Both the position numbers and the translations under genes were made by a program. From Spirochaetia bacterium (GTDB lineage: Bacteria; Spirochaetota; Spirochaetia; CADAEX01): a stretch of DNA of 45,151 nucleotides. The stretch covers positions 1 to 45,151 of the forward strand of contig JAKSTW010000012.1 of assembly GCA_024402405.1 (NCBI GenBank), written 5' to 3'. The notes below the pieces were generated by a model. The model did not search any database. It saw only the letters and a list, made by a program, of their open reading frames with translations, and was not told where the DNA came from. Shown here piece by piece: positions 27,884 through 40,634 of this stretch; position 1 is the first letter of the stretch; each line of letters begins with the position of its first letter.

Positions 27884-28834
27884 ATGAAATTTAATAAAAG
27901 TTATAAAATACTGCTTTTTATAAGTATGATTTTAATAATACTTGAATTATCTTCTTGTTCAGTGAAAAAGATGGCTGTTGATGCAATTGCTAAAAATATG
28001 ACTGGAAATGATACTGCGGAGGTTTTCCTTTCAGATAATGATCCTCAGCTTGTGGGAGATTCTCTTCCTCTGGTGCTGAAAATGATGGATATGCTGGTTT
28101 CCATGGATCCTGAGAATCCTAATATTCTTTCCAATGCCGGCAGTCTTTTTGTGATGTATGGAAATTTCTACATCCAGCTGCCTGCTGATATGCTTCCTTA
28201 TGATCAGTGGCAGGAGCAGAAGGATATGTATGCCAGAGCAAAAAAACATTATAACAGGGGTTATGATTATATAATGAGGGCTCTGAATATGAGGCATAAG
28301 AATTTTTCAGAAGAAATGAGTGCCGGAAATTTTGATCAGGCTTTTGCAGATATGAAAAAATCAGATGCTGCAGATCTTTACTGGTGCAGTGCCGCTGTCC
28401 TGGCCGGCTGTTCTGTGGATGTGCTGGATCCTGTGTTTGCAGCAAGACGCGGTGATGCTGTCAGGATGCTTTTCAAAGCGTATGAGCTGGATCCTGATTT
28501 TGGCAGCGGCATGATAGATGAGCTTATGATGCTGTATTATGCTTCCATGCCTGCCGGTATGGGCGGTGATATGGAAAAGGCTGTATGGCATTTCAGAAGG
28601 GGAATAGAGATATCGGATGATACGTTGCTTTCTCTTTATGTTTCTTATGCCACATCGATATGCACGAAAAACCAGACTAGGGAAGGCTATGATGAGTTTG
28701 CTGACATGCTTGAGAAGGTTCTTGAGCGGGATGTGGAAGCATCTTCAGCCAACCGGCTTACCAATATTGTGTCTCAGAAAAAGGCGGCATGGCTGCTGGA
28801 GAACATAGATAATTATTTTTTGATCGGATTTTAA
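27884..28834 (+). CDS. tatT: TatT-like TRAP-associated lipoprotein with TPR fold
   Basis: A 316-residue lipoprotein with the lipobox LSSC (acylated Cys25). The body is helical with TPR-like repeats (DPENPNILSNAGSLFVMYG, AKKHYNRGYDYIMRAL, LFKAYELDPDF). In Treponema pallidum the protein at the same position, directly before TatP and DctQM, is TatT (Tp0956). It forms a TPR-type trimer that is thought to pass ligand to the solute-binding protein. Gene order and the fold indicate the same role. AAGGGA in the end of the previous gene is its ribosome binding site. The next gene starts 9 bases later. Confidence 0.88.
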   Translation: MKFNKSYKILLFISMILIILELSSCSVKKMAVDAIAKNMTGNDTAEVFLSDNDPQLVGDSLPLVLKMMDMLVSMDPENPNILSNAGSLFVMYGNFYIQLPADMLPYDQWQEQKDMYARAKKHYNRGYDYIMRALNMRHKNFSEEMSAGNFDQAFADMKKSDAADLYWCSAAVLAGCSVDVLDPVFAARRGDAVRMLFKAYELDPDFGSGMIDELMMLYYASMPAGMGGDMEKAVWHFRRGIEISDDTLLSLYVSYATSICTKNQTREGYDEFADMLEKVLERDVEASSANRLTNIVSQKKAAWLLENIDNYFLIGF

Positions 28835-28843
28835 GGTAATATT

Positions 28844-29830
28844 ATGAAAAAAATTGTTTGCGTGATATTTTTATTATTCTTCTGTTTTGGGTGTGCTTTT
28901 GCCGGTACTGTCATAAAGCTTGGATCTGTGGCTCCTGTGGGTTCTCTCTGGGATATAAAATGCAAGGAGATCGCATCAGAGTGGAAACGGATCTCCAATG
29001 GTGAAGTGGAGCTAAAGCTTTATATGGGCGGGACTGTCGGCGATGAGGATAATATGATCCGTGCCATGAAGATGGGGGGACTTAATGCCGGTGCTATGAC
29101 TGCTCAGGGTATAAAGGGCATTTCTGCGGATTCATTTGCTCTGTGTCTGCCATTTGTAGTGAAGGATGATGATGAGTTCAGCTATGTATTTGATAAAATG
29201 AAGGGGACATTTGAGAAAAAGATGGAGGAGCAGGGATTTATCACTTTGGGCTGGGCAATGACTGGCTGGGTGAAGTTTTTCTCCAGAGATCCTATTGTGT
29301 CACCTGATGATCTGAAAAAGCAGAAAATTGCCATAGATACTGATGGTCGTGTCAGCAAGATATGGACAGATCTTGGATTTCATGCAATTCCTCTGGCTTT
29401 CAATGATATTCTGGCCGGCCTTTACAGTGGAATGGCCGATGTCACATATGTCACACCTCTGGCTGCCTCATCCATGGGGCTGACAGCCATGGCTCCTAAT
29501 ATGTGTGATATATCCATTGCCCCTGTTTACTGTGCTTTTGTCATAGAGAAAAGGGCTTGGAACCGTGTTCCTGAAAAATACAGGAATGAACTGAAGAAAC
29601 GGACTTCTGAGATCGCAGCAGGACTTTATGATATAATCAAGGTCGATGAGAGCAGGGCTGTGGAGATAATGAAAAAAGATGCACTGATCATAAATGATGT
29701 GCCTGCTGATGTCCAGGCTGAATGGATGCAGATAGGTACTGCAGGAAGTGATGTTTTCTCCAGAGAACTGATTTCAAAAGAAGTTTATGACGAGATGATA
29801 AGTTACGTAAATGAGTACAGAAAAAAGTAA
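28844..29830 (+). CDS. dctP: TRAP transporter solute-binding protein (DctP/TatP-like)
   Basis: A 328-residue periplasmic or membrane-tethered substrate-binding protein. It has a signal segment (MKKIVCVIFLLFFCFGCAFA), with FGC possibly serving as a lipobox. The DctP fold shows the SVAPVGSLWDIKCKEIASEW opening, GGTVGDEDNMIRAMKMGGLNAG, a SRDPIVSPDDLKKQKIA hinge and a DTDG-R ligand-contact region. The substrate cannot be read from the sequence; carboxylates are usual, and a more hydrophobic ligand has been suggested for the Treponema homologue. The end overlaps the transporter gene by 20 bases. Confidence 0.93.
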   Translation: MKKIVCVIFLLFFCFGCAFAGTVIKLGSVAPVGSLWDIKCKEIASEWKRISNGEVELKLYMGGTVGDEDNMIRAMKMGGLNAGAMTAQGIKGISADSFALCLPFVVKDDDEFSYVFDKMKGTFEKKMEEQGFITLGWAMTGWVKFFSRDPIVSPDDLKKQKIAIDTDGRVSKIWTDLGFHAIPLAFNDILAGLYSGMADVTYVTPLAASSMGLTAMAPNMCDISIAPVYCAFVIEKRAWNRVPEKYRNELKKRTSEIAAGLYDIIKVDESRAVEIMKKDALIINDVPADVQAEWMQIGTAGSDVFSRELISKEVYDEMISYVNEYRKK

Positions 29831-31670
29831 GAACTTTTTTGAAATTTATATCTCTGCTTTTCTTCTGGTATTGCTGGCCGGGATTCCTGCCGCTGAGATC
29901 ATTGTCAGAAAGTTCATGCATGTAGGAATAAAAGGGGGGTATGATTATACCAGACATATTGTCCTGTGGCTCACACTGTTGGGTGCTGCCCTGAATTCTC
30001 ACTTTGACGGACATCTGAAGATCGAGTTCGGAACAAAGTTTTTGTCTGAGAAATATCAGAGTATGGCCAGAAGTTTCTCACTCATGACTGTACTGTGGGT
30101 ATGCACATGTTTCATGATCATCTCATCCTCATTTGTGGTCATGGGATTTTCTGCCGCAGATAAAATAGGTGTCATCAGCACAAGGGTGGCTGTCGGCATT
30201 CTGCCAGTCGGTTTTCTGCTGGTCATTTACAGAGAGCTGGATTCCTCTGCCGGGAAATGTGTGCTGCCATGGATTTTTGCACCTTTGGGAATCATACTTG
30301 GACTGGCTGTATCTGTTTCTCCACTGGTGAACCTTGTATCCTGTTATTGCAGCAATATACCTGAATTTTACTGGAATCTGGCTGACCGATCCATAGCCAT
30401 AATATCTGCTCTTAAGCTGCCTGGTCTTATATTTCTTATTCTTGCAGGAATTATGGGCACTCCTATTTTTGCTGTCATCGGTGGCATAGCATTCATTCTG
30501 ATCTCTGCTTCCGGATGTTATGCAGAGACAGCTGCCAATGAATTTTATACCATGCTGATAAGCAACACAGTGCCGGCTATTCCGCTGTTCACACTTACAG
30601 GATTTGTCCTGTCTGAGAGCAAGGCAGGTGACAGGCTGATAAGGACATTCAATGCATTTTTCGGATGGCTGCCAGGAGGAATCATTCTGGCATCAGTTCT
30701 TATATCTGCATTTTTCACCGTATTCACCGGGGCATCGGGTGTGACGATCCTGGCTCTGGGCGGTATCCTTACTGTGGTATTGGAAAAATCCGGCATTGAT
30801 GAGAGGTACAGGACTGGCCTGCTGTGTTCTGCAGGAAGCATAGGACTTCTGTTTCCTCCAAGCCTGCCGATCATTCTTTATGGCATCATTGCACAGCTTG
30901 ATATAAGGCAACTTTTTATAGGTGGTATCATCCCTGGTATCCTGCTGGTACTTTCTCTGGCTGTCACTGGTTTTATCTATGTTTCCAGACATGATGTGAA
31001 GGCTGTCAGATCCAGCTGTAAGGAATGTGCAGCCAGTTTCATTGAGTGTATATGGGAGATACTTCTTCCGTTCATAATTATAATCTCATATTTTTCAGGC
31101 CTCACTACACTGGTGGAGACCGGAGCTGTGGCTGTACTGTATACTATGTTTGTAGACTTCATTATAAAGCGTGAGCTTCATCTGAAGGATCTTTTCATAA
31201 TTGCCAGAAAAAGTGTTCCTATCATTGCCGGGATACTTATGATTTTGGGAATGGCAAAAGTGCTTTCATATTACATGATCGACCAGCAGATACCTCAGCG
31301 GTTCAGTGAATGGATCGCCATGCACATACATTCCAGGATCGTATTTCTTCTGCTGCTGAATGTGGCGCTGCTTGTTGTGGGGTGCTTCATGGATATTTTC
31401 TCAGCCATTATGGTGGTTGTGCCGCTGATCCTTCCTCTGGGTGAGCTGTTCGGCGTGAATCCTGTGCATCTTGGAATTATTTTCCTGGCAAACCTTGAGT
31501 TGGGATATATAACACCTCCTGTCGGTCTGAACCTGTTTCTGGCCAGTTACAGATTCGATCAGAAACTGGAGAATATTTATCGTGCGGTCGTTCCATTTTT
31601 CCTCATAATGCTGCTGACTGTGTTCATAATCACTTATGTGCCGCAGTTCACACTTTGCCTGATACGGTGA
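29811..31670 (+). CDS. TRAP transporter fused small and large membrane subunits (DctQM)
   Basis: A 619-residue membrane protein. The N-terminal ~170 residues form the four-helix DctQ part (with GGYDYTRHIVLWLTLLGA and the acidic HLKIEF segment). A linker follows, then the 12-helix DctM part from about residue 200 (PAIPLFTLTGFVLSES, GASGVTILALGGIL, GLLFPPSLPIILYG, and ELGYITPPVGLNLF near the end). It should drive sodium-coupled uptake of the ligand bound by the preceding protein. The fused QM form matches the Treponema arrangement. Its stop codon abuts the stop of the convergent FAD-subunit gene. Confidence 0.93.
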   Translation: MSTEKSKNFFEIYISAFLLVLLAGIPAAEIIVRKFMHVGIKGGYDYTRHIVLWLTLLGAALNSHFDGHLKIEFGTKFLSEKYQSMARSFSLMTVLWVCTCFMIISSSFVVMGFSAADKIGVISTRVAVGILPVGFLLVIYRELDSSAGKCVLPWIFAPLGIILGLAVSVSPLVNLVSCYCSNIPEFYWNLADRSIAIISALKLPGLIFLILAGIMGTPIFAVIGGIAFILISASGCYAETAANEFYTMLISNTVPAIPLFTLTGFVLSESKAGDRLIRTFNAFFGWLPGGIILASVLISAFFTVFTGASGVTILALGGILTVVLEKSGIDERYRTGLLCSAGSIGLLFPPSLPIILYGIIAQLDIRQLFIGGIIPGILLVLSLAVTGFIYVSRHDVKAVRSSCKECAASFIECIWEILLPFIIIISYFSGLTTLVETGAVAVLYTMFVDFIIKRELHLKDLFIIARKSVPIIAGILMILGMAKVLSYYMIDQQIPQRFSEWIAMHIHSRIVFLLLLNVALLVVGCFMDIFSAIMVVVPLILPLGELFGVNPVHLGIIFLANLELGYITPPVGLNLFLASYRFDQKLENIYRAVVPFFLIMLLTVFIITYVPQFTLCLIR

Positions 31671-32501
31671 TTACAGCTGAGAGATGAAATCCTCAAATAT
31701 ATTTCTCAGGGTTTTCTGCAGGTAAGGGGAGAATGAGGTGTATTTGCGGTTGAAGATCTCACCGAACTGTTGGCTCCAAGCTTCAATGTCTTTCTGTGGT
31801 ACAGGAATTTTCTGTTCCATGAATGCTGTCTCGAACTCCTGTTCTCTTATTATGCTGTCTCCCCAGTTTCCTATGACAAATCTGCACATGGTTATATTTT
31901 TCCTGAAAGTCGAGGCAATTCCCATGAAGCAGATATTGTGGTTTGTATCCTGGATCTCTTTGTAATAATCAACGTCGTATGTGGTGTATGGAATCTTGAA
32001 ATTCAGTACCATCTCACCATTCTGTAACTGCAGTCTGCCATTCTGGTAAAGTTTGCTGACCAGCATTGTCTTCTTACTTCCGGCAGTCATGGATGATGAT
32101 ACTTCTATCTTTGCATTCAGCAGAGCCAGCGCGCTGTAGATCTTGTTCCTGATTTTGGGATCGCAGACCATTCCCCCTATGGTATATATATTCCTGGAGT
32201 TTGGAAGACCTGTGTTTGCCAGTGCATTGATAAAGATATGAGGAAGTATGTTCTGACCGTTTTTCAGCAGCTCATTCACTTTTATCTCTGAACCTATATC
32301 AAAGTATTTTTCATTCCTTTTGATGGTGTTCAGTTCTGCGATAAGTCCCGGGTAAATGCCTGTAGGCGGCACATGCTCCTGTCCTGGCAGTGTGGATACT
32401 GACCGTATATAGTTGATATCATCAAAATACAGATTGTAGTTTACGCTGCTTTTCATGTTTTTATATAATTCAGACAATGTTGTAGGTATGAGAAATTCCA
32501 T
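31671..32501 (-). CDS. FAD-binding subunit of a molybdenum hydroxylase (xanthine dehydrogenase-like)
   Basis: A 276-residue protein matching the FAD-binding (CoxM/XdhB) subunit. It has a first segment with PTTLSELYKNM, an FAD pyrophosphate region (YPGLIAELNTI), the ALANTGLPNSRNIYTIGGMVCDP block (equivalent to the N-x-G-T-x-G-G region) and a CO-dehydrogenase flavoprotein C-terminal domain. It should pass electrons from the 2Fe-2S subunit to an acceptor. The motifs are weaker than in typical xanthine dehydrogenases. It is the last gene of the NusG-led operon, 1 base after the 2Fe-2S gene, with GAGG upstream. Confidence 0.8.
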   Translation of the reverse strand: MEFLIPTTLSELYKNMKSSVNYNLYFDDINYIRSVSTLPGQEHVPPTGIYPGLIAELNTIKRNEKYFDIGSEIKVNELLKNGQNILPHIFINALANTGLPNSRNIYTIGGMVCDPKIRNKIYSALALLNAKIEVSSSMTAGSKKTMLVSKLYQNGRLQLQNGEMVLNFKIPYTTYDVDYYKEIQDTNHNICFMGIASTFRKNITMCRFVIGNWGDSIIREQEFETAFMEQKIPVPQKDIEAWSQQFGEIFNRKYTSFSPYLQKTLRNIFEDFISQL

Positions 32502-32502
32502 A

Positions 32503-32973
32503 TTATCTGCCTCGTTTCAGTGCGTTGAATGCCAGACGTATGCCAATGGTCATGGTCTTGAGATCTGTGCAGTTGCATATGTTTCCGGATAGAGCCCTGT
32601 ATATATCATCATTGTTCAGCTTATCCGAATTTTTCAGCAGTGAGTATATTGTTATGATCCTGCCGGTAGAGCAGTAATCACAGAATATGCAGTTATATGT
32701 TTTCAGCGTCTTGTCGATTATGCTGTATTCTCTGGTGGTCTTTATATGTTCAAATGTAAGGATATTGGCATTTCTGACTGTGAACATATGTATCATGCAG
32801 GATGGTACAGGAAGGTTGTTTTTCAGCACAGTACAGCCGCCGCATCTTCCTGTATTACAGCATTCATTCACGCTGTCTATGCTGAATTTTGTCCTGAGGA
32901 TCTCAGAGAGACTGTCCATAGGATCGGCATCAACAGCCACCTGCTTTTTGTTCAGAATGAATTTTATCAGCAT
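32503..32973 (-). CDS. 2Fe-2S subunit of the molybdenum hydroxylase
   Basis: A 156-residue protein with all eight cluster cysteines in the exact family spacing. The plant-type cluster uses C39, C44, C47 and C59 (C-x4-C-x2-C-x11-C). The second cluster uses C98, C101, C133 and C135 (C-x2-C-x31-C-x-C). The protein carries electrons from the molybdenum site to FAD. The flanking sequence differs from the consensus (CNTGRCGGC rather than the usual G-C-x-x-G-x-C-G-A-C). The start overlaps the large-subunit stop by 7 bases, with GGAGGG upstream. Confidence 0.88.
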   Translation of the reverse strand: MLIKFILNKKQVAVDADPMDSLSEILRTKFSIDSVNECCNTGRCGGCTVLKNNLPVPSCMIHMFTVRNANILTFEHIKTTREYSIIDKTLKTYNCIFCDYCSTGRIITIYSLLKNSDKLNNDDIYRALSGNICNCTDLKTMTIGIRLAFNALKRGR

Positions 32974-34940
32974 GTTCCCTCCACCAGTCTGTATATTTTC
33001 TCATGCGTTATAGGATAACTGAAGATATTTTTACCGATAGCCTGGGAGACTGCACTGGAATATGCTGCCGATATGAGTGCATTTGCCATGTCACCGCAGG
33101 AACATGGATTCTGGATCTTGGAATTTTTTATCAGATTTATGTTTATAGGCAGATCTGCGAATTTCCATGAAGTGGCGTAACCTGTATTAAGGGGTTCTGT
33201 CAGCCAGAGCAGAGTACTGGTGATCTTCTGTTTTATGTCTTTTTTCAGCAATTCCTCACTCAATACCTTGCCTCGGTCCATGGATATCCAGATCCCTCGT
33301 ATTGCGGGCTTATATGTTGTTGTATCCACAGATACCTCAACGACAGCTGAACCCCAGACATTCTCATCCGGAATTTCACTGTTTTCTGAACTGCATGTGA
33401 CTGTCACTGGGAATACACCTTCTGCTGCCTTTTTCATAAGTGTCCTGCAGCAGTTGGATATTGTGCCGGCAACAGGAAGAAATGTATTGTTGAAAATATC
33501 AGGGCATGATGGACAGTTCCTGTCAGTGTCATGGGAAGATATGAATATCTTTTCGACAGGTACTGATGTCTCTGCATTTATTATCTCTTTCCAGAAAGTA
33601 TATTCATCATAGTACTGAGGCACAGTAGCAGTGCTCAGAGTGATGTTTCTGTCTGAATCCATGGTGAGTGAGCATGTCACTGAATTATCCAGCGGAAACT
33701 TGCTCAGGGACTTGTTCCTGCAGTACGCCATTGCCATTCCTATTCCTCTGGTATAAAATTTATCCAGCTGGTCATCGCTTTTTCTTTTTTTCAGCAGCTC
33801 ATAGAAAGAATATTTTTTAAGATAATCAGACTCTGCAAGTACATTGTCAATTATTTCCTCAGAAAAAGATGATCTGATGTTGTTCTTCCTCCAGTCCATA
33901 GGACTGGCATCAAGTCTGGAGATGATTACATTTATGTGGTTCTCCAGTGCGGTCAGTATCTGTGAGAAATTGATTCCTGTGATGAATGACATGGATGGAG
34001 TGCTGGTTTTTATCAGTCTCTCATGGATCTTTATCTTTGGAATTTTATACTGTCCGAAAGCATCGGTCAGCAGGATCTTTATAAGCTCATTGCTGAAAAG
34101 AGGATATGCTCCGGTTGCTATCTCTATCTGGACATCACATTCCAGAAGCCTGTCTGTGTTCTTTTCAAGTGTGGATGTATGTCTGATCCTGAAAGGATAC
34201 TGGGAAGGTATGAACTGTCTGACTTCATCCGGAGAATAAAGCAGTTTTACAGGTCGTCCTGTCTTGTATGCCGCAAAAGCTGCCAGAGCGCCCAGGTATG
34301 ATGAGTACCAGAGCCGTCCCTCCATAGGTGCTGTCATTTCAGTGACTCTGACTATCACATCATCAGGAGCCATATCCAGCATACCGGCTACTGTCTGGCG
34401 GACATGGAAAGGCCACTGGGTAGGGGCATAGACTGTAAGGGTCTTCCCGTTATATTCTGCAGCCACACCCACGGTGTCGTTATATTCGGGACAGAAATAA
34501 TCACCTGATGTCTCTGTCTCGATCGTATATGTATTTTCCTTCTGAAATTTTATATCCTCGTATGTGAACTCAAATTCTTTTGGACAGAAGATCTGTTCCG
34601 GTCTGTAATCCATGTCAAAATAATATGGTGTGCTTGGCCTGAACTCTATGTTTATGCTGTCAGAAATATTTTTCAGATCCTGTCTGTTCTCTGCAGCTAT
34701 CAGGAATATAGGCTCGCCCTGGTAATTTACCCAGTTGCCGCACAGAAGAGGAATTTTATATCCCAGTATATCTATTTCTTTCTGCGGAAGGTCTTCAAGG
34801 GAGAAAATATGTGCATTCTCAGGCAGTCTGTCTGGAAGTGAATATCTCATTATCTCGCCATTGATGATCGTTGCCCTGAAGAATCCTAGAGTCAGAGGTC
34901 TGTTCAGTTTCAGGTCATTTATAAAAAATTTGTTTGCCAT
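32967..34940 (-). CDS. divergent molybdopterin-binding subunit (xanthine dehydrogenase family)
   Basis: A 657-residue protein, shorter than the roughly 750-residue norm. Family order is recognisable: an N-terminal hammerhead domain, the LTVYAPTQWPFHVRQTVAGML segment at 168-188, GRPVKLLYSPDEV at 228-240, a helix equivalent to the E-x-x-x-D-x-x-A segment near 333-355, and the end GDMANALISAAYSS from residue 616. Key cofactor motifs are altered. The GGGFGGK loop is replaced by TAPMEGRLW (203-211), the second R-G-x-G loop is lost (313-327), and the position of the catalytic glutamate near the C-terminus holds Asp617. It begins 2 bases after the NusG paralogue. Confidence 0.8.
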   Translation of the reverse strand: MANKFFINDLKLNRPLTLGFFRATIINGEIMRYSLPDRLPENAHIFSLEDLPQKEIDILGYKIPLLCGNWVNYQGEPIFLIAAENRQDLKNISDSINIEFRPSTPYYFDMDYRPEQIFCPKEFEFTYEDIKFQKENTYTIETETSGDYFCPEYNDTVGVAAEYNGKTLTVYAPTQWPFHVRQTVAGMLDMAPDDVIVRVTEMTAPMEGRLWYSSYLGALAAFAAYKTGRPVKLLYSPDEVRQFIPSQYPFRIRHTSTLEKNTDRLLECDVQIEIATGAYPLFSNELIKILLTDAFGQYKIPKIKIHERLIKTSTPSMSFITGINFSQILTALENHINVIISRLDASPMDWRKNNIRSSFSEEIIDNVLAESDYLKKYSFYELLKKRKSDDQLDKFYTRGIGMAMAYCRNKSLSKFPLDNSVTCSLTMDSDRNITLSTATVPQYYDEYTFWKEIINAETSVPVEKIFISSHDTDRNCPSCPDIFNNTFLPVAGTISNCCRTLMKKAAEGVFPVTVTCSSENSEIPDENVWGSAVVEVSVDTTTYKPAIRGIWISMDRGKVLSEELLKKDIKQKITSTLLWLTEPLNTGYATSWKFADLPININLIKNSKIQNPCSCGDMANALISAAYSSAVSQAIGKNIFSYPITHEKIYRLVEGTC

Positions 34941-34942
34941 AA

Positions 34943-35455
34943 TTACAGCCTGTCCAGAAAATCAAATCCAAAATCCACCAGGAAAGAGTTCTCATACAGT
35001 CTGAGTCTGACTTTTGCCCTTTTTTTTCTCCTGTCAACTTTGACAATAAGTCCCTCCAGACCTTTCAGAGGTCCATCCTGTACCTGTATCTTATCATTTT
35101 CATCAAAAACTACAAAGGATTTTTTTATGGTTCTTCCATATTTTGTCAGCTGGAATATGATCCGTTTCTCATCTTCAGGAAGAGGTGTGATATTCAGATT
35201 GTCTTTCAGAAATTTTCCGAAGTGGGGAAGCAGCCTTATTTCTGCAAAAAGTTCACTGCTGATGGATTCTGCCTCTGCAAATACATATCCCGGGAAGACA
35301 GGAACTGTGGTTCTGACAAGCTTTCTGTTTTTTCGCACCATAAGTTCACGTTTTGGAAAATAAAATGAGATCTGGTCTGAAAAATCTGTTTTTTCAGCAA
35401 ATCTGAGAAATTTATTTTCATCACCTGTGTAGACCTGTACGACAAAAATGTTCAT
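34943..35455 (-). CDS. NusG-family transcription factor (specialised paralogue, LoaP/RfaH-like position)
   Basis: A 170-residue protein with an NGN domain (VVQVYTGDENKF start, then VPVFPGYVFAEAE at 51-63) and a C-terminal KOW domain (IQVQDGPLKGLEGLIVKV at 123-140). It is not next to secE or ribosomal protein genes, as the housekeeping NusG is. Instead it leads the molybdenum hydroxylase operon, 2 bases before the large subunit, as RfaH- and LoaP-type antiterminators do for their target operons. That role is inferred. The start is uncertain: an in-frame ATG at 35473 is possible, and neither has a clear ribosome binding site. Confidence 0.85.
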   Translation of the reverse strand: MNIFVVQVYTGDENKFLRFAEKTDFSDQISFYFPKRELMVRKNRKLVRTTVPVFPGYVFAEAESISSELFAEIRLLPHFGKFLKDNLNITPLPEDEKRIIFQLTKYGRTIKKSFVVFDENDKIQVQDGPLKGLEGLIVKVDRRKKRAKVRLRLYENSFLVDFGFDFLDRL

Positions 35456-35515
35456 TTCAAAAAGAAATACCATATTTTTTGAATCAAAACAACATTTTTT
35501 TCAGTTTCATTATGC

Positions 35516-36793
35516 ATGAGAAGAAACTTATTCATTTTTATCACTTTTTTTTTGATGGCAGGCAGCCTGTTCGGTACCCAGGATATAAAGATCAGCAGCA
35601 AAGTGACCAGTGACTGGTCGGTGAGATCAAAGGCAGATTATAGAAATAAGAATTTTGAGGCAACTGCCATAAACATAGAGTCCGATGAGAAGAATTATAC
35701 CATGTGTTCTGTGGAATGTGATTACTTTGGTTTTGGCAAACTGAAGCTCCGTGGACTTTTCTCCGAGATCCAGAATCCATGCGGTTACAATCCTGGCTCT
35801 GAAGTCTTTTTCACCAGAACTTATCTGACTATTGATAAATCAGTCTCTGATTCCGGCAGGACCGGGATCTATGTTGAACCTTTTCCATGGCTGTGCTTTT
35901 TTTCACTGTGGGACAGCAATGATGCCAATGTGAATGGAATTTCACTTGGATTCTCTTCTGCCAACATTGAGTTCAGCTGTATGTTTCAGGATTCCCACGT
36001 GTCTGATGTCAAAAACGGATCCAGCTGGTATCTTACCAGAAGTGAGCAGTATGAGGGATGTGAGCTTATGAATGTGATTTCCAGCCTGAATTTCATAACT
36101 GACTGGTTTTCTCTCATGCTGTGCGGAGGAACCTGTTTCGGTGATTATGTCAATGCAGGCTTTTATAACCGAGATATGCTTTCAGTATACTGTTTCTCAT
36201 GGCTGGAACTGAATATACTGTTCTCCGGTACGACTGAGCACTATCTGGCACCCACCGGTAAAATACCTTTATCACAGTACAAATATGGAGCTGAGATCAT
36301 TCTGTGGCCATTCAGGGATCTGAAGCTTAGCTGCATGTATTACAATGATTATCAGCGTCCTGACATGAAAGATGAGTCGTACAATGATTTTACCAGAAAT
36401 CTGAATACCTCAGCAGTATTTTCTCCGGGAGATTTCCGTTTCAGCCTGGCTTATGTCTGGAATGATAAATTTGCCAATGACGGAACTGTTTCAGATAAAG
36501 CAAGGATTGAGGCCGGTGCATCATATTCTGGAGATCTGTTCTATATCGGTGTTAAGAATACTTATTACTTGGAAGAAAAAGATGGTGTGAGAAATTATAC
36601 GACAGTCACCGGTAAGATGAAAGGTGATTTTCTGCGTGGAGAGGTGACATACCGGCATGATGTGACAGATGAGCTGGCAGATTCGTTTCTGGAGAAGATC
36701 GTGTTTGATTTCAGACATCTGGAAATCGTCCTTTCCCATGAGAAGCCTGCTCATAAGAAATCAATATTTTCTATTGAATTTTCACTGGAATAG
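35516..36793 (+). CDS. putative outer-membrane beta-barrel protein
   Basis: A 425-residue protein with a signal peptide (MRRNLFIFITFFLMAGSLFG), then long runs of alternating polar and hydrophobic residues rich in Tyr, Phe, Ser and Asn. It ends in an aromatic-hydrophobic strand (SIFSIEFSLE), a profile typical of outer-membrane beta barrels. I do not recognise the family. No ribosome binding site is obvious before the ATG at 35516. The gene diverges from the NusG-hydroxylase operon and is followed 34 bases later by pyrBI, so it may share transcription with it. Confidence 0.65.
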   Translation: MRRNLFIFITFFLMAGSLFGTQDIKISSKVTSDWSVRSKADYRNKNFEATAINIESDEKNYTMCSVECDYFGFGKLKLRGLFSEIQNPCGYNPGSEVFFTRTYLTIDKSVSDSGRTGIYVEPFPWLCFFSLWDSNDANVNGISLGFSSANIEFSCMFQDSHVSDVKNGSSWYLTRSEQYEGCELMNVISSLNFITDWFSLMLCGGTCFGDYVNAGFYNRDMLSVYCFSWLELNILFSGTTEHYLAPTGKIPLSQYKYGAEIILWPFRDLKLSCMYYNDYQRPDMKDESYNDFTRNLNTSAVFSPGDFRFSLAYVWNDKFANDGTVSDKARIEAGASYSGDLFYIGVKNTYYLEEKDGVRNYTTVTGKMKGDFLRGEVTYRHDVTDELADSFLEKIVFDFRHLEIVLSHEKPAHKKSIFSIEFSLE

Positions 36794-36827
36794 AGATACC
36801 ATAAAATCGAGGTTATATCGGAGTTAT

Positions 36828-38417
36828 ATGAGCAGAAATACATTCAAAGGACGGAGTCTCACCGTCATAAACGATTTTTCTTATGATGAGAAAATGTACC
36901 TTTTCCAGAAGGCAAGAGAGCTTAAGCAGTATCTTAAAGAAGAAAACCACGAAAAGATCGATGAATTCAGAATAAATGATCCTGATTTCGGAATCTATGA
37001 GGTTTTTATAGAGGACAGCACCAGGACAAAGGAATCTTTCAAGAATGCCGCAGAATTCCACAGGGTCAAACTTTCAAACCTTGACACCACACATTCCTCA
37101 ATAAACAAGCAGGAAAGTTTTGCAGATACATTCAACACTCTGACTGGATATGACAACTCCATATTCATTGTCAGAAGCCGTCAGGAAGGTCTGTGCCGCT
37201 GGCTGGAGGAAAACGGCAGGAACTATGCCATGAGAAATGAGCTGAAGAATCCTCCTGCTTTCATAAATGCAGGTGACGGCAAGCATGAGCATCCTACCCA
37301 GGAGCTGCTGGATGACTTCACATTTCTGGAACACAACGACTGGAATGCCGATTCCATACATATTGCACTGGCCGGAGACCTGTTCCACGGGCGTACGGTG
37401 CATTCCAAAGCTGACGGCTTGAAGATCTTCAAAAAAGTGAAGGTGGATCTGATTGCACCTCAGGAACTGGCAATGCCTGATTATTATCTGGATAAGATGA
37501 AGAAGAATGGATTTGAAGTGAATACATTCAGTTCAATACAGGAATATATTGACAATGGCAATATGGCTAAAATATGGTATTTCACCAGACCTCAGCTGGA
37601 GAGAATGGGTGATGCTGTCCTGAAGAAACAGGATATTCTCAGGGACAAGATCACTTTCAAGAAAGAATTCATAGATAAGATTCCGGAAGGGACGATTTTC
37701 TATCATCCGCTGCCACGCCACAAGGTTTTTCCTTCGATTCCGACATTCTTGGATTCCACTCCGCTGAACGGCTGGGAACGGCAGTCCATAAACGGCAAGA
37801 TAATAAGGATCATACTGCTGGGACTTATTGCCGGCAAGATCGGTGATGATTTCACAGGCGAGGTAAAGGTAAGGCAGCATACAGAGGATGATGTCAGTTT
37901 CATCCAGGAACTTCCTGTGCACAATAACACACCTATCAAGGATTGCTCAGAAGGAGTCAAACCTATTGATAACGGTCTTGTCATTGATCATATCTTCAGG
38001 GGCAGGACAGAATTTGAGATCCGTGAGCAGATGGCAAGGATCATAAAGACTCTGAAACTGTATGGCAAGGGAGGCGAGTGGGTCACTTCCTCCAGGGCTG
38101 AACCTGGTATGATGAAAGGAATAATTTTCAGACCTAACCATGGTGAGCTGGGAACAAAGAATATGAAGCGTCTGGCTTCACTGGCACCTGGCTGCACAGT
38201 CAATATAATAGAGAACAAGCATGTGGAGAAGAAATACAGACTCTCCATGCCTCAGAAGATATATAATTTCAGTGATATTGAATGCAGCAATACTGACTGT
38301 ATCAGCAACCATGAGCAGGGTGAAAACATTCCTTCTGAATTTTATAAGATCTCTGAGAATAAATTCATCTGTAAATACTGTGAGAAAGTCCATACTTTCA
38401 TGGAGATATGGAAATAA
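36828..38417 (+). CDS. pyrBI: fused aspartate carbamoyltransferase, catalytic plus regulatory chain
   Basis: The first committed enzyme of pyrimidine synthesis (carbamoyl phosphate plus aspartate). The N-terminal ~330 residues form the catalytic chain, with the carbamoyl phosphate loop STRTK at 64-68 (usually STRTR), HPTQ at 155-158 and HPLPRHK near 290. The C-terminal ~190 residues match the PyrI regulatory chain, with zinc ligands C486, C491, C515 and C518. The start is at 36828 (MSRNTFKG) because CGGAG lies 4 bases upstream; a longer open frame exists but overlaps the previous gene. Fusion of the two chains is known from Treponema and a few other bacteria. RarA follows 9 bases later. Confidence 0.94.
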   Translation: MSRNTFKGRSLTVINDFSYDEKMYLFQKARELKQYLKEENHEKIDEFRINDPDFGIYEVFIEDSTRTKESFKNAAEFHRVKLSNLDTTHSSINKQESFADTFNTLTGYDNSIFIVRSRQEGLCRWLEENGRNYAMRNELKNPPAFINAGDGKHEHPTQELLDDFTFLEHNDWNADSIHIALAGDLFHGRTVHSKADGLKIFKKVKVDLIAPQELAMPDYYLDKMKKNGFEVNTFSSIQEYIDNGNMAKIWYFTRPQLERMGDAVLKKQDILRDKITFKKEFIDKIPEGTIFYHPLPRHKVFPSIPTFLDSTPLNGWERQSINGKIIRIILLGLIAGKIGDDFTGEVKVRQHTEDDVSFIQELPVHNNTPIKDCSEGVKPIDNGLVIDHIFRGRTEFEIREQMARIIKTLKLYGKGGEWVTSSRAEPGMMKGIIFRPNHGELGTKNMKRLASLAPGCTVNIIENKHVEKKYRLSMPQKIYNFSDIECSNTDCISNHEQGENIPSEFYKISENKFICKYCEKVHTFMEIWK

Positions 38418-38426
38418 CTTTTGAGC

Positions 38427-40634
38427 ATGGATCTTTTTGAGGCTGGTTCCGACAGAAATATTTCTCCTCTGGCTGATGCCATGCGCCCTGAGTCCCTGGA
38501 TGAATTTGTAGGACAGGAGCATATTGTAGGCAAGGGGAGACTGCTCCGGCGTGCCATTCAGGCCGACCAGCTTTCATCTGTGATTTTTTATGGTCCTCCA
38601 GGAACTGGCAAGACAACACTTGCCAGAATAATAGCCAAGCCCACAAAAAGTTCATTCATCACCATAAATGCTGTGCTGGCAGGTGTCAAAGAGATACGGG
38701 ATGCTATTGAGCAGGCCAAGAAGAAACGGGAGTTTTATGGCACCAGAACTATACTGTTCGTAGATGAGGTACACCGTTGGAACAAAGCCCAGCAGGATGC
38801 ACTCCTGCCTTGGGTGGAGAATGGAACATTCATATTCATAGGTGCAACTACTGAGAATCCATATTTCGAGGTGAATTCAGCACTGGTCAGCCGAAGCCGT
38901 GTATTCCAGCTGCTGCCCCTGTCCAATGCCGACCTGATGAAGGCTGCTGAGTATGCTGTTCATAATGTCGAGAAAGGATATGGACGGTACAGAATTGAAT
39001 TTGAGGAAGGTGCACTTGAACACATTGTGGCTATAGCCAACGGTGATGCCAGAAGTATGCTGAATGCACTGCAGCTGGCGGTGGAGACTACTCCCGATGT
39101 TTTTCCTCCGCCGGATGGCACAGTCATAAGGATCACTCTTGAGATCGCAGAGGAGAGTATACAGAAAAAAGCTGTTCTGTATGACAAGGAGGGTGATTAC
39201 CATTATGACACTATCAGTGCGTTCATAAAATCTCTCAGAGGAAGTGATCCGGATGCGGCTCTGTACTGGATGGCCCGCATGGTGGAAGGCGGTGAAGATC
39301 CTAAGTTTATTTTCAGGCGTATGATGATACTGGCCTCTGAGGATGTGGGACTGGCAGATCCGTATGCGCTGGGTGTTGTGGTATCTGCAGCCCAGGCTTT
39401 TGACCGGGTCGGAATGCCTGAGGGACAGTTCTTCATGTCTCATGCCGCTCTGTATCTGGCTTCTGCCAAAAAGTCTAATTCATCCTTGGCATATTTTGAT
39501 GCGCTGGAAGCTGTAAAAAAAGAAAAACAGGCAGAAGTTCCTTCACATCTGAAGGATGCATCCAGAGATAAGGAGAGTTTCGGTCACGGGGAAGGATATA
39601 AATATCCTCATGCGTTCCGTGATCACTGGGTGGCTCAGCAGTATCTTCCTGATAATCTAAGAGGCAAGGTTTTCTATATTCCAGGACATATAGGATATGA
39701 GGCAGAGTCTGCAAAGCTTCTTTCACAGAGGCGTGAGGCACAGATAGAGGCACAGTTTGACACCGCAGAATCTTTTGGTGAGGTTTATTCTTTCTCCAAG
39801 ACCGACAGAGCCAAGGATGCATGGCTCAGACGCACTATCAGTCAGAAGAATGTGGTACTTTCTGAAATACGTGATATGGTTTTTGCCGATCTGAACATTC
39901 AGAGACATCATAAGGTGCTTATACCTGGCAATGACAGAGGACTGCTGACCTGGGAGGCTGTTAGAAAGACTCCAGAGGGCGGTGTTTTTGTGCTGGTGGA
40001 CAGTGTGCAGGATGAATATTTTTTCAAGGACTATCCCTCACTTCTGTCCGATATTGAGAAACCATCACCTATGAATATCTCTCTGACTGCATATTCTGAA
40101 AGCAGGGATCATCTCCAGTTCGATATCATTGCCGGCCGTAATTTCATGACAAGGGATGACAAACAGGCAGGTTTCAGGGCTTTATATGAGCTGCTGGAGG
40201 AAGATGGGTGCTGTTCTGTGGCTCAGATAATTCCTGTGCTGTCTTCCAGACTTTCAGATTTCATACTGAAATATCTGGATGCTGATGACAGAAACAGATT
40301 CCTTGAGTGTGAGAAAAAACTTTTCAATGATTCAGACAACCAGCTTTTCAACTGGAACCATGAGACTCTTGCGGAGAATGCCAGAATGACAGGATTTGAA
40401 GTTCATTGTATAATGAAAGAGTTCATGGAAAACAGGCTTGTCATGGATAAGGATCTTCAGAACTGGTTCAACAGTGACAATCCATATTCCTATGGTGCTG
40501 TTCTGACCGCTGAATCAGAGCAGCTGAAGAACAGAGTCAGAAATGTCGCTGCAAATGTCATGGAGAATCAGACGATCACCTGGAAGTCTGTTTATGCATT
40601 CCTGCGGCTTCGTAGATCTCATCAGATTTCCTGA
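38427..40634 (+). CDS. rarA: RarA (MgsA) AAA ATPase with a long extra C-terminal domain
   Basis: A 735-residue protein. Residues 1 to about 445 are a complete RarA, which acts at stalled replication forks. Walker A is GPPGTGKT (56-63), Walker B is LFVDEVHRWNKAQQD, sensor GATTENP follows, and the MgsA-type C-terminal block YKYPHAFRDHWVAQQYLPDNLRGK closes it. About 290 residues follow that normal RarA lacks. Their start (KVLIPGNDRGLLTWEA) resembles the Rossmann-fold beginning of a methyltransferase-like domain, but no complete SAM motif is clear. The start is ATG 38427 or TTG 38421. The 3' end overlaps the convergent TPR gene by 59 bases. Confidence 0.88.
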   Translation: MDLFEAGSDRNISPLADAMRPESLDEFVGQEHIVGKGRLLRRAIQADQLSSVIFYGPPGTGKTTLARIIAKPTKSSFITINAVLAGVKEIRDAIEQAKKKREFYGTRTILFVDEVHRWNKAQQDALLPWVENGTFIFIGATTENPYFEVNSALVSRSRVFQLLPLSNADLMKAAEYAVHNVEKGYGRYRIEFEEGALEHIVAIANGDARSMLNALQLAVETTPDVFPPPDGTVIRITLEIAEESIQKKAVLYDKEGDYHYDTISAFIKSLRGSDPDAALYWMARMVEGGEDPKFIFRRMMILASEDVGLADPYALGVVVSAAQAFDRVGMPEGQFFMSHAALYLASAKKSNSSLAYFDALEAVKKEKQAEVPSHLKDASRDKESFGHGEGYKYPHAFRDHWVAQQYLPDNLRGKVFYIPGHIGYEAESAKLLSQRREAQIEAQFDTAESFGEVYSFSKTDRAKDAWLRRTISQKNVVLSEIRDMVFADLNIQRHHKVLIPGNDRGLLTWEAVRKTPEGGVFVLVDSVQDEYFFKDYPSLLSDIEKPSPMNISLTAYSESRDHLQFDIIAGRNFMTRDDKQAGFRALYELLEEDGCCSVAQIIPVLSSRLSDFILKYLDADDRNRFLECEKKLFNDSDNQLFNWNHETLAENARMTGFEVHCIMKEFMENRLVMDKDLQNWFNSDNPYSYGAVLTAESEQLKNRVRNVAANVMENQTITWKSVYAFLRLRRSHQIS

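Follow-up and report, generated by a model that had tools for sequence, protein, structure and literature searches.

The closest described relatives of the complex reported here are the molybdenum hydroxylases of the XDH family (XdhA/XdhB/XdhC), e.g., bovine xanthine oxidase (XO, 1fiq) and the XDH of R. capsulatus (1jro). A loss of the molybdenum cofactor is on record for the other large Mo superfamily, MopB, in which ActB appears among the proteins without Mo/W-bisPGD and Nqo3 has no ligand cysteine (PMC10100899). Nqo3/NuoG in complex I and ActB in alternative complex III are descendants of Mo enzymes that have no Mo cofactor and are kept in electron-transfer complexes. For the XDH family, our literature search found no branch free of the molybdenum cofactor (Moco), and we know of none in which the protein has been retained. 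A further point of comparison is the ascarylose pair E1/E3, which consists of a PMP/[2Fe-2S] dehydrase and an FAD/[2Fe-2S] reductase; E1 lacks the PLP lysine.

Here, we describe an XDH-like complex that is very probably Moco-free and that occurs in most sampled genomes of the Spirochaetia. Its genes are located on contig JAKSTW010000012.1 of a Spirochaetia bacterium, of which a stretch of 45,151 nucleotides was analysed, called the window in the following. The relevant features of the window are:

34943-35473, minus strand: loaP, which opens the operon; antiterminator and NusG paralogue (145.7 bits with LoaP of NCBIfam; cut-off 125)
32967-34940, minus strand: large subunit, 657 aa, with XDH fold but lacking Moco motifs (ATG start, TGA stop)
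34308-34334, minus strand: TAPMEGRLW, residues 203-211, replacing the cofactor loop GGGFGGK (profile alignment)
33966-34010, minus strand: KTSTPSMSFITGINF, residues 311-325, in place of TNxxPxxAFRGFG (profile alignment)
33603-33623, minus strand: VPQYYDE, residues 440-446, replacing the MGQG loop (profile alignment)
33087-33104, minus strand: CSCGDM, residues 613-618, with Asp617 in the catalytic Glu column (alignment)
32503-32973, minus strand: [2Fe-2S] subunit, XdhC-like, 156 aa, overlapping the 3' end of the large-subunit gene
32797-32859, minus strand: Fe/S II, four ferredoxin-type cluster cysteines, intact
32569-32682, minus strand: Fe/S I, four helical-domain cluster cysteines, intact; the preceding Gln is changed to Phe
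31671-32501, minus strand: FAD subunit, XdhB-like, 276 aa; TIGG loop kept, AGGT changed to FDDIN

The initial annotation had taken the ORF 32967-34940 as a relative of molybdenum hydroxylases, and both its domains and its predicted fold agree with this. Pfam reports MoCoBD_1 (1.4e-26) and MoCoBD_2 (8e-12), with the hammerhead domain staying below the cut-off; NCBIfam also places the protein in the XDH family, at scores far under the equivalog cut-offs. An AlphaFold2 model, computed with 50 orthologues in the input, is confident (pLDDT 87, pTM 0.87). When searched with Foldseek it matches Mo hydroxylases, with a TM-score of 0.88 to bovine XO (1fiq_C). The two-domain MoCoBD fold is thus present by Pfam, AlphaFold2 and Foldseek. 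The window complex shares the fold of the XDH family (TM-score 0.85-0.88 to 1fiq and 1jro), the three-subunit make-up and the FeS and FAD domains. It differs in that all Moco loops and the Gln before the Fe/S I cysteine are lost, and in that the genome encodes no detectable MoaA or MoeA.

For the loops, a profile made from 50 orthologues was aligned to the sequence of bovine xanthine oxidase, for which a structure is solved. The bovine cofactor loop MGGGFGGKETR aligns without gaps to ssssLDGKiwf of the profile, FRGFGG to ffsgfgd and MGQGL to vpqsesl. These gapless alignments argue, at the sequence level, against a relocation of the cofactor loops elsewhere in the protein. The replacement of GGGFGGK by TAPMEGRLW, claimed at the outset, is placed at residues 203-211, and the glycine/arginine loop, expected near 313-327, is indeed lost, with RGFG missing from residues 311-325. 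Not a single Gly-Gly dipeptide occurs in the 657 aa of the large subunit. Asp617 had been listed among the notable changes as well. The residue is Asp and does stand in the catalytic Glu column; as a distinctive feature it was dropped, because this column is variable among orthologues (of 71, 30 have E, 19 have D and 22 another residue).

One MoCoBD gene is found in each of the 11 genomes of the window's order, and the profile matches at 1e-20 in 255 out of 297 genomes of the class. As canonical XDHs also match the profile at this threshold, 71 loci were inspected one by one. GGxFG[GA] and RGFG are present in none of these 71 orthologues and in all of 36 canonical XDHs, 30 of which had been picked by the GGxFG[GA] motif, so that for those only the RGFG count is independent. 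Since the loss is common to all 71 verified orthologues, chance or sequencing error is excluded. In a tree of all sampled orthologues, a single branch (SH-aLRT 99) has the Moco-free sequences on one of its sides; the inner order of this clade is unsure owing to some long branches. Between close relatives in two genera, dN/dS of the large subunit is 0.05-0.10; this strong purifying selection means that it is not decaying. Values for the FeS and FAD subunits, again between close relatives, are 0.04-0.18.

The canonical relatives that score best with the profile are XDHs of 711-719 aa with intact motifs, some of them from genomes outside the class. Those of the Spirochaetota (L150-L155, L157, L158) have the same order of large, FeS and FAD genes as the window complex; they differ in their intact GGxFGGK and RGFG motifs, and loaP or sugar genes were not detected alongside. 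In one genome (G221), a canonical large subunit extends across three ORFs (L125:7300-9292), which may reflect a disrupted gene or a misassembly.

A genome search for molybdopterin synthesis genes, proposed in the initial annotation, gave a result in line with a missing cofactor. With Pfam, neither MoaA nor MoeA was found in the 11 genomes of the window's order, including the window genome, while controls were positive in 11 of 14 cases. Seed searches in 70% of the window genome found no MoaC, MogA, MoeA, MobA or ModA, and MoaA seeds gave one weak match of about 24 bits. The MoaA, MoaC, MogA and MoeA seeds recover relatives in control loci; MobA and ModA seeds recover only themselves there and are thus weaker tests. 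Across the class, 49 of the 72 genomes with a verified orthologue lack both MoaA and MoeA, and 23 encode at least one. Absence by Pfam alone is no proof, as some relatives with canonical XDH genes are negative, too: genomes G018, G043, other f9 genomes, G033 and G277 carry such genes (L122, L123, L127, L128) and have no match to MoaA C-terminal or MoeA_N. They may have divergent cofactor genes or rely on salvage. The same caution applies to L165, where a molybdopterin-binding protein of 348 aa has no MoeA_N (L165:12095-13138); its gene neighbours are MoaC, a MobA-like gene and a transporter of Mod-like type.

That the 2Fe-2S partner (32503-32973) keeps all eight cluster cysteines had been noted before and holds for the window, as well as for 61 of 74 clade loci. 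The residue preceding the fifth of them (QCGFC) is Gln in 11 out of 11 canonical FeS subunits vs. 1 out of 74 in the clade; we take this Gln to be a pterin contact in XDH structures. Its loss supports the loss of the cofactor independently of the large subunit. Conservation in the small subunit is highest at the cluster cysteines, and 42 of 74 loci retain all eight together with both FAD loops. The first FAD loop is lost in all members of the window family that were examined. Cluster II ligands are lost in L082 (from genome G083) and L159, Fe/S II in L112 with the ORF still open, and both clusters in L140 and L146. The open-frame FeS subunits without cluster cysteines in L112, L140, L146 and L159 belong to unrelated genera, i.e., the loss was repeated. 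Several lineages thus lack Fe-S or FAD motifs although their genes are intact, and a complete electron chain cannot be what is required of the complex everywhere, even if most members retain its motifs. This is also a difference to Nqo3/NuoG and ActB, whose fold and superfamily are unrelated to those of the clade: here, Fe-S centres were lost as well in some lineages.

The common operon order is loaP, a UDP-sugar 4,6-dehydratase-like gene, an aminotransferase-like gene, and the large, FeS and FAD subunits. Among the 71 loci, 56 have the aminotransferase, 56 the dehydratase and 40 loaP as neighbours; two further aminotransferases overlap the large ORF. In L147, an ORF of 1078 aa looked like an aminotransferase fused to the large subunit; this was rejected, as the aminotransferase is encoded in a different frame that overlaps the ORF, whose N-terminal portion matches nothing. 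The sugar genes are named "-like" only, since the aminotransferases score 316-346 with PseC (equivalog cut-off 423.5) and the dehydratases 173-186 with PseB (cut-off 407.8). LoaP genes are known from Spirochaetota, near biosynthetic operons (PMC12691694). In genomes of the window genus, the large-subunit gene comes immediately after loaP, without the two sugar genes that separate them elsewhere. A strong DegT aminotransferase occurs in one of seven genomes of this genus, elsewhere in that genome, and the remaining six gave no strong DegT match. Redox-motif loss does not follow sugar-gene loss across the loci.

Synteny, the one line of evidence for it, possibly ties the complex to a sugar pathway. 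A DegT-family sugar enzyme adjoining a flavin/Fe-S reductase resembles ascarylose E1/E3. Unlike E1, the operon aminotransferase retains the PLP lysine (SFYATK), which is nearly invariant in 40 aligned sequences. The analogy, with the aminotransferase as a PMP-dependent dehydrase fed by the complex, was given up for this reason. Flagellin glycosylation as the destination of an amino-sugar was dropped as well, as the literature found gives no link to the operon. Elsewhere in the window, a TRAP transporter operon (TAtT, DctP, fused DctQM; 27884-31670) is convergent with the XDH-like genes. By eye, an ORF of 582 aa (36669-38417) appears to fuse the catalytic and regulatory chains of aspartate carbamoyltransferase, and one of 737 aa (38421-40634) combines a RarA-like AAA+ N-terminal part with a long unidentified C-terminal extension.

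Our preferred reading, to which we give an even chance as a whole, is that the genes 31671-34940 encode an XDH-derived, Moco-free trimer that would serve as electron carrier for a LoaP-controlled amino-sugar pathway, with the large subunit as scaffold; its biochemical function is what we infer. Moco would have been lost once, in an ancestor that was an XDH-type molybdenum hydroxylase. The complex would then have been retained as a flavin/Fe-S electron carrier for the LoaP-controlled pathway, delivering electrons in most members, and the former Moco subunit may act in all of them as a scaffold to which a substrate or partner binds. Later on, the redox centres would have become optional, because the ones lost differ from lineage to lineage, whereas the large subunit is always retained. 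The window genus has lost both sugar genes, and what is left are loaP and the three subunits. Contradicting the electron-carrier step are the cluster-loss lineages L082, L159, L140 and L146, and in the window family the loss of the first FAD loop weakens it. Against the sugar-pathway step stands the window genus, which keeps the complex without an adjoining aminotransferase. A conversion to electron transfer had been among the options of the initial annotation; it fits most members but is not universal, given the lineages that lost Fe-S or FAD motifs in intact genes.

An explanation that needs no electron transfer at all is a non-redox scaffold or regulatory pseudoenzyme complex, in which the redox centres are needless in all subunits and the trimer only binds a ligand or partner proteins. 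It would account for the strong purifying selection on the complex and for the pattern of losses, in which no redox site has survived in every lineage although the ORFs remain open (Moco is missing throughout, Fe/S II from L082, L112 and L159, both clusters from L140 and L146, and FAD loop 1 from all of the window family). We consider it rather unlikely nevertheless, as the high conservation of the cluster cysteines and the 42 of 74 loci with all eight of them and both FAD loops are unexpected for a complex in which redox chemistry has no use anywhere. If the genes were the relic of an XDH operon in decay, this would fit the motif loss and the repeated loss of cluster cysteines; such a relic is extremely improbable in view of open frames throughout the class, dN/dS of 0.05-0.10 in two genera, a placement on one side of one branch and a conserved operon order.

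Could the protein still be a genuine hydroxylase with Mo or another metal-pterin, its cofactor held by unusual residues and perhaps scavenged? The XDH fold is unchanged, the Gln of the TQ motif is retained in 44 of 71 orthologues, Glu stands at the catalytic column in 30 of 71, and MoaA or MoeA is encoded in 23 of the 72 genomes with the protein. However, three cofactor loops of the large subunit and the Gln of the small subunit were lost together, the window genome yielded no cofactor genes (MoaA and MoeA by Pfam, the others in 70%), and to our knowledge no import of Moco is known in bacteria. An altered use of Moco, as first suggested for the protein, is very unlikely on the same grounds, and so is this explanation. 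A new role in binding, or a new substrate, is possible. The protein might also be an oxidoreductase of a new kind, whose active site differs and occupies the former Moco cavity, with a nucleotide-amino-sugar as substrate; this we regard as quite unlikely. Clade-specific conserved positions, a [DE]GK[LI]W-like motif that occupies the old cofactor loop in many members, and the synteny with dehydratase and aminotransferase genes are in its favour, but only four columns are invariant in the orthologue profile (A1), none of them suggesting an obvious new catalytic cluster, and the complex persists where the adjoining sugar genes are gone. Also unlikely is the wider proposal that the class-wide Moco-free XDH branch is a NuoG-like case and now a pathway complex of the Spirochaetia (probably including T. 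pallidum), making or modifying a nucleotide amino-sugar via an active site newly formed in the cavity that once held Moco.

The clade probably includes T. pallidum: the orthologue of G083 lies at 87-89 kb of a single contig of 1,139,633 bp, which matches the position of TP0080. TP0080 is, presumably, annotated as quinoline 2-oxidoreductase. This annotation implies Mo catalysis, and the motif loss in the G083 orthologue argues against it; the FeS subunit at this TP0080-like locus additionally lacks cluster II. A literature search on TP0077-TP0081, T. pallidum quinoline 2-oxidoreductase or orphan spirochaete XDHs returned nothing relevant.

The XDH family would thus be able to lose its molybdenum cofactor and yet stay under selection, as NuoG/Nqo3 did in the other large Mo superfamily. 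A likely misannotation is corrected for a gene present in most sampled Spirochaetia, probably in T. pallidum too. The product of the operon of loaP, dehydratase, aminotransferase and XDH-like genes becomes a testable question.
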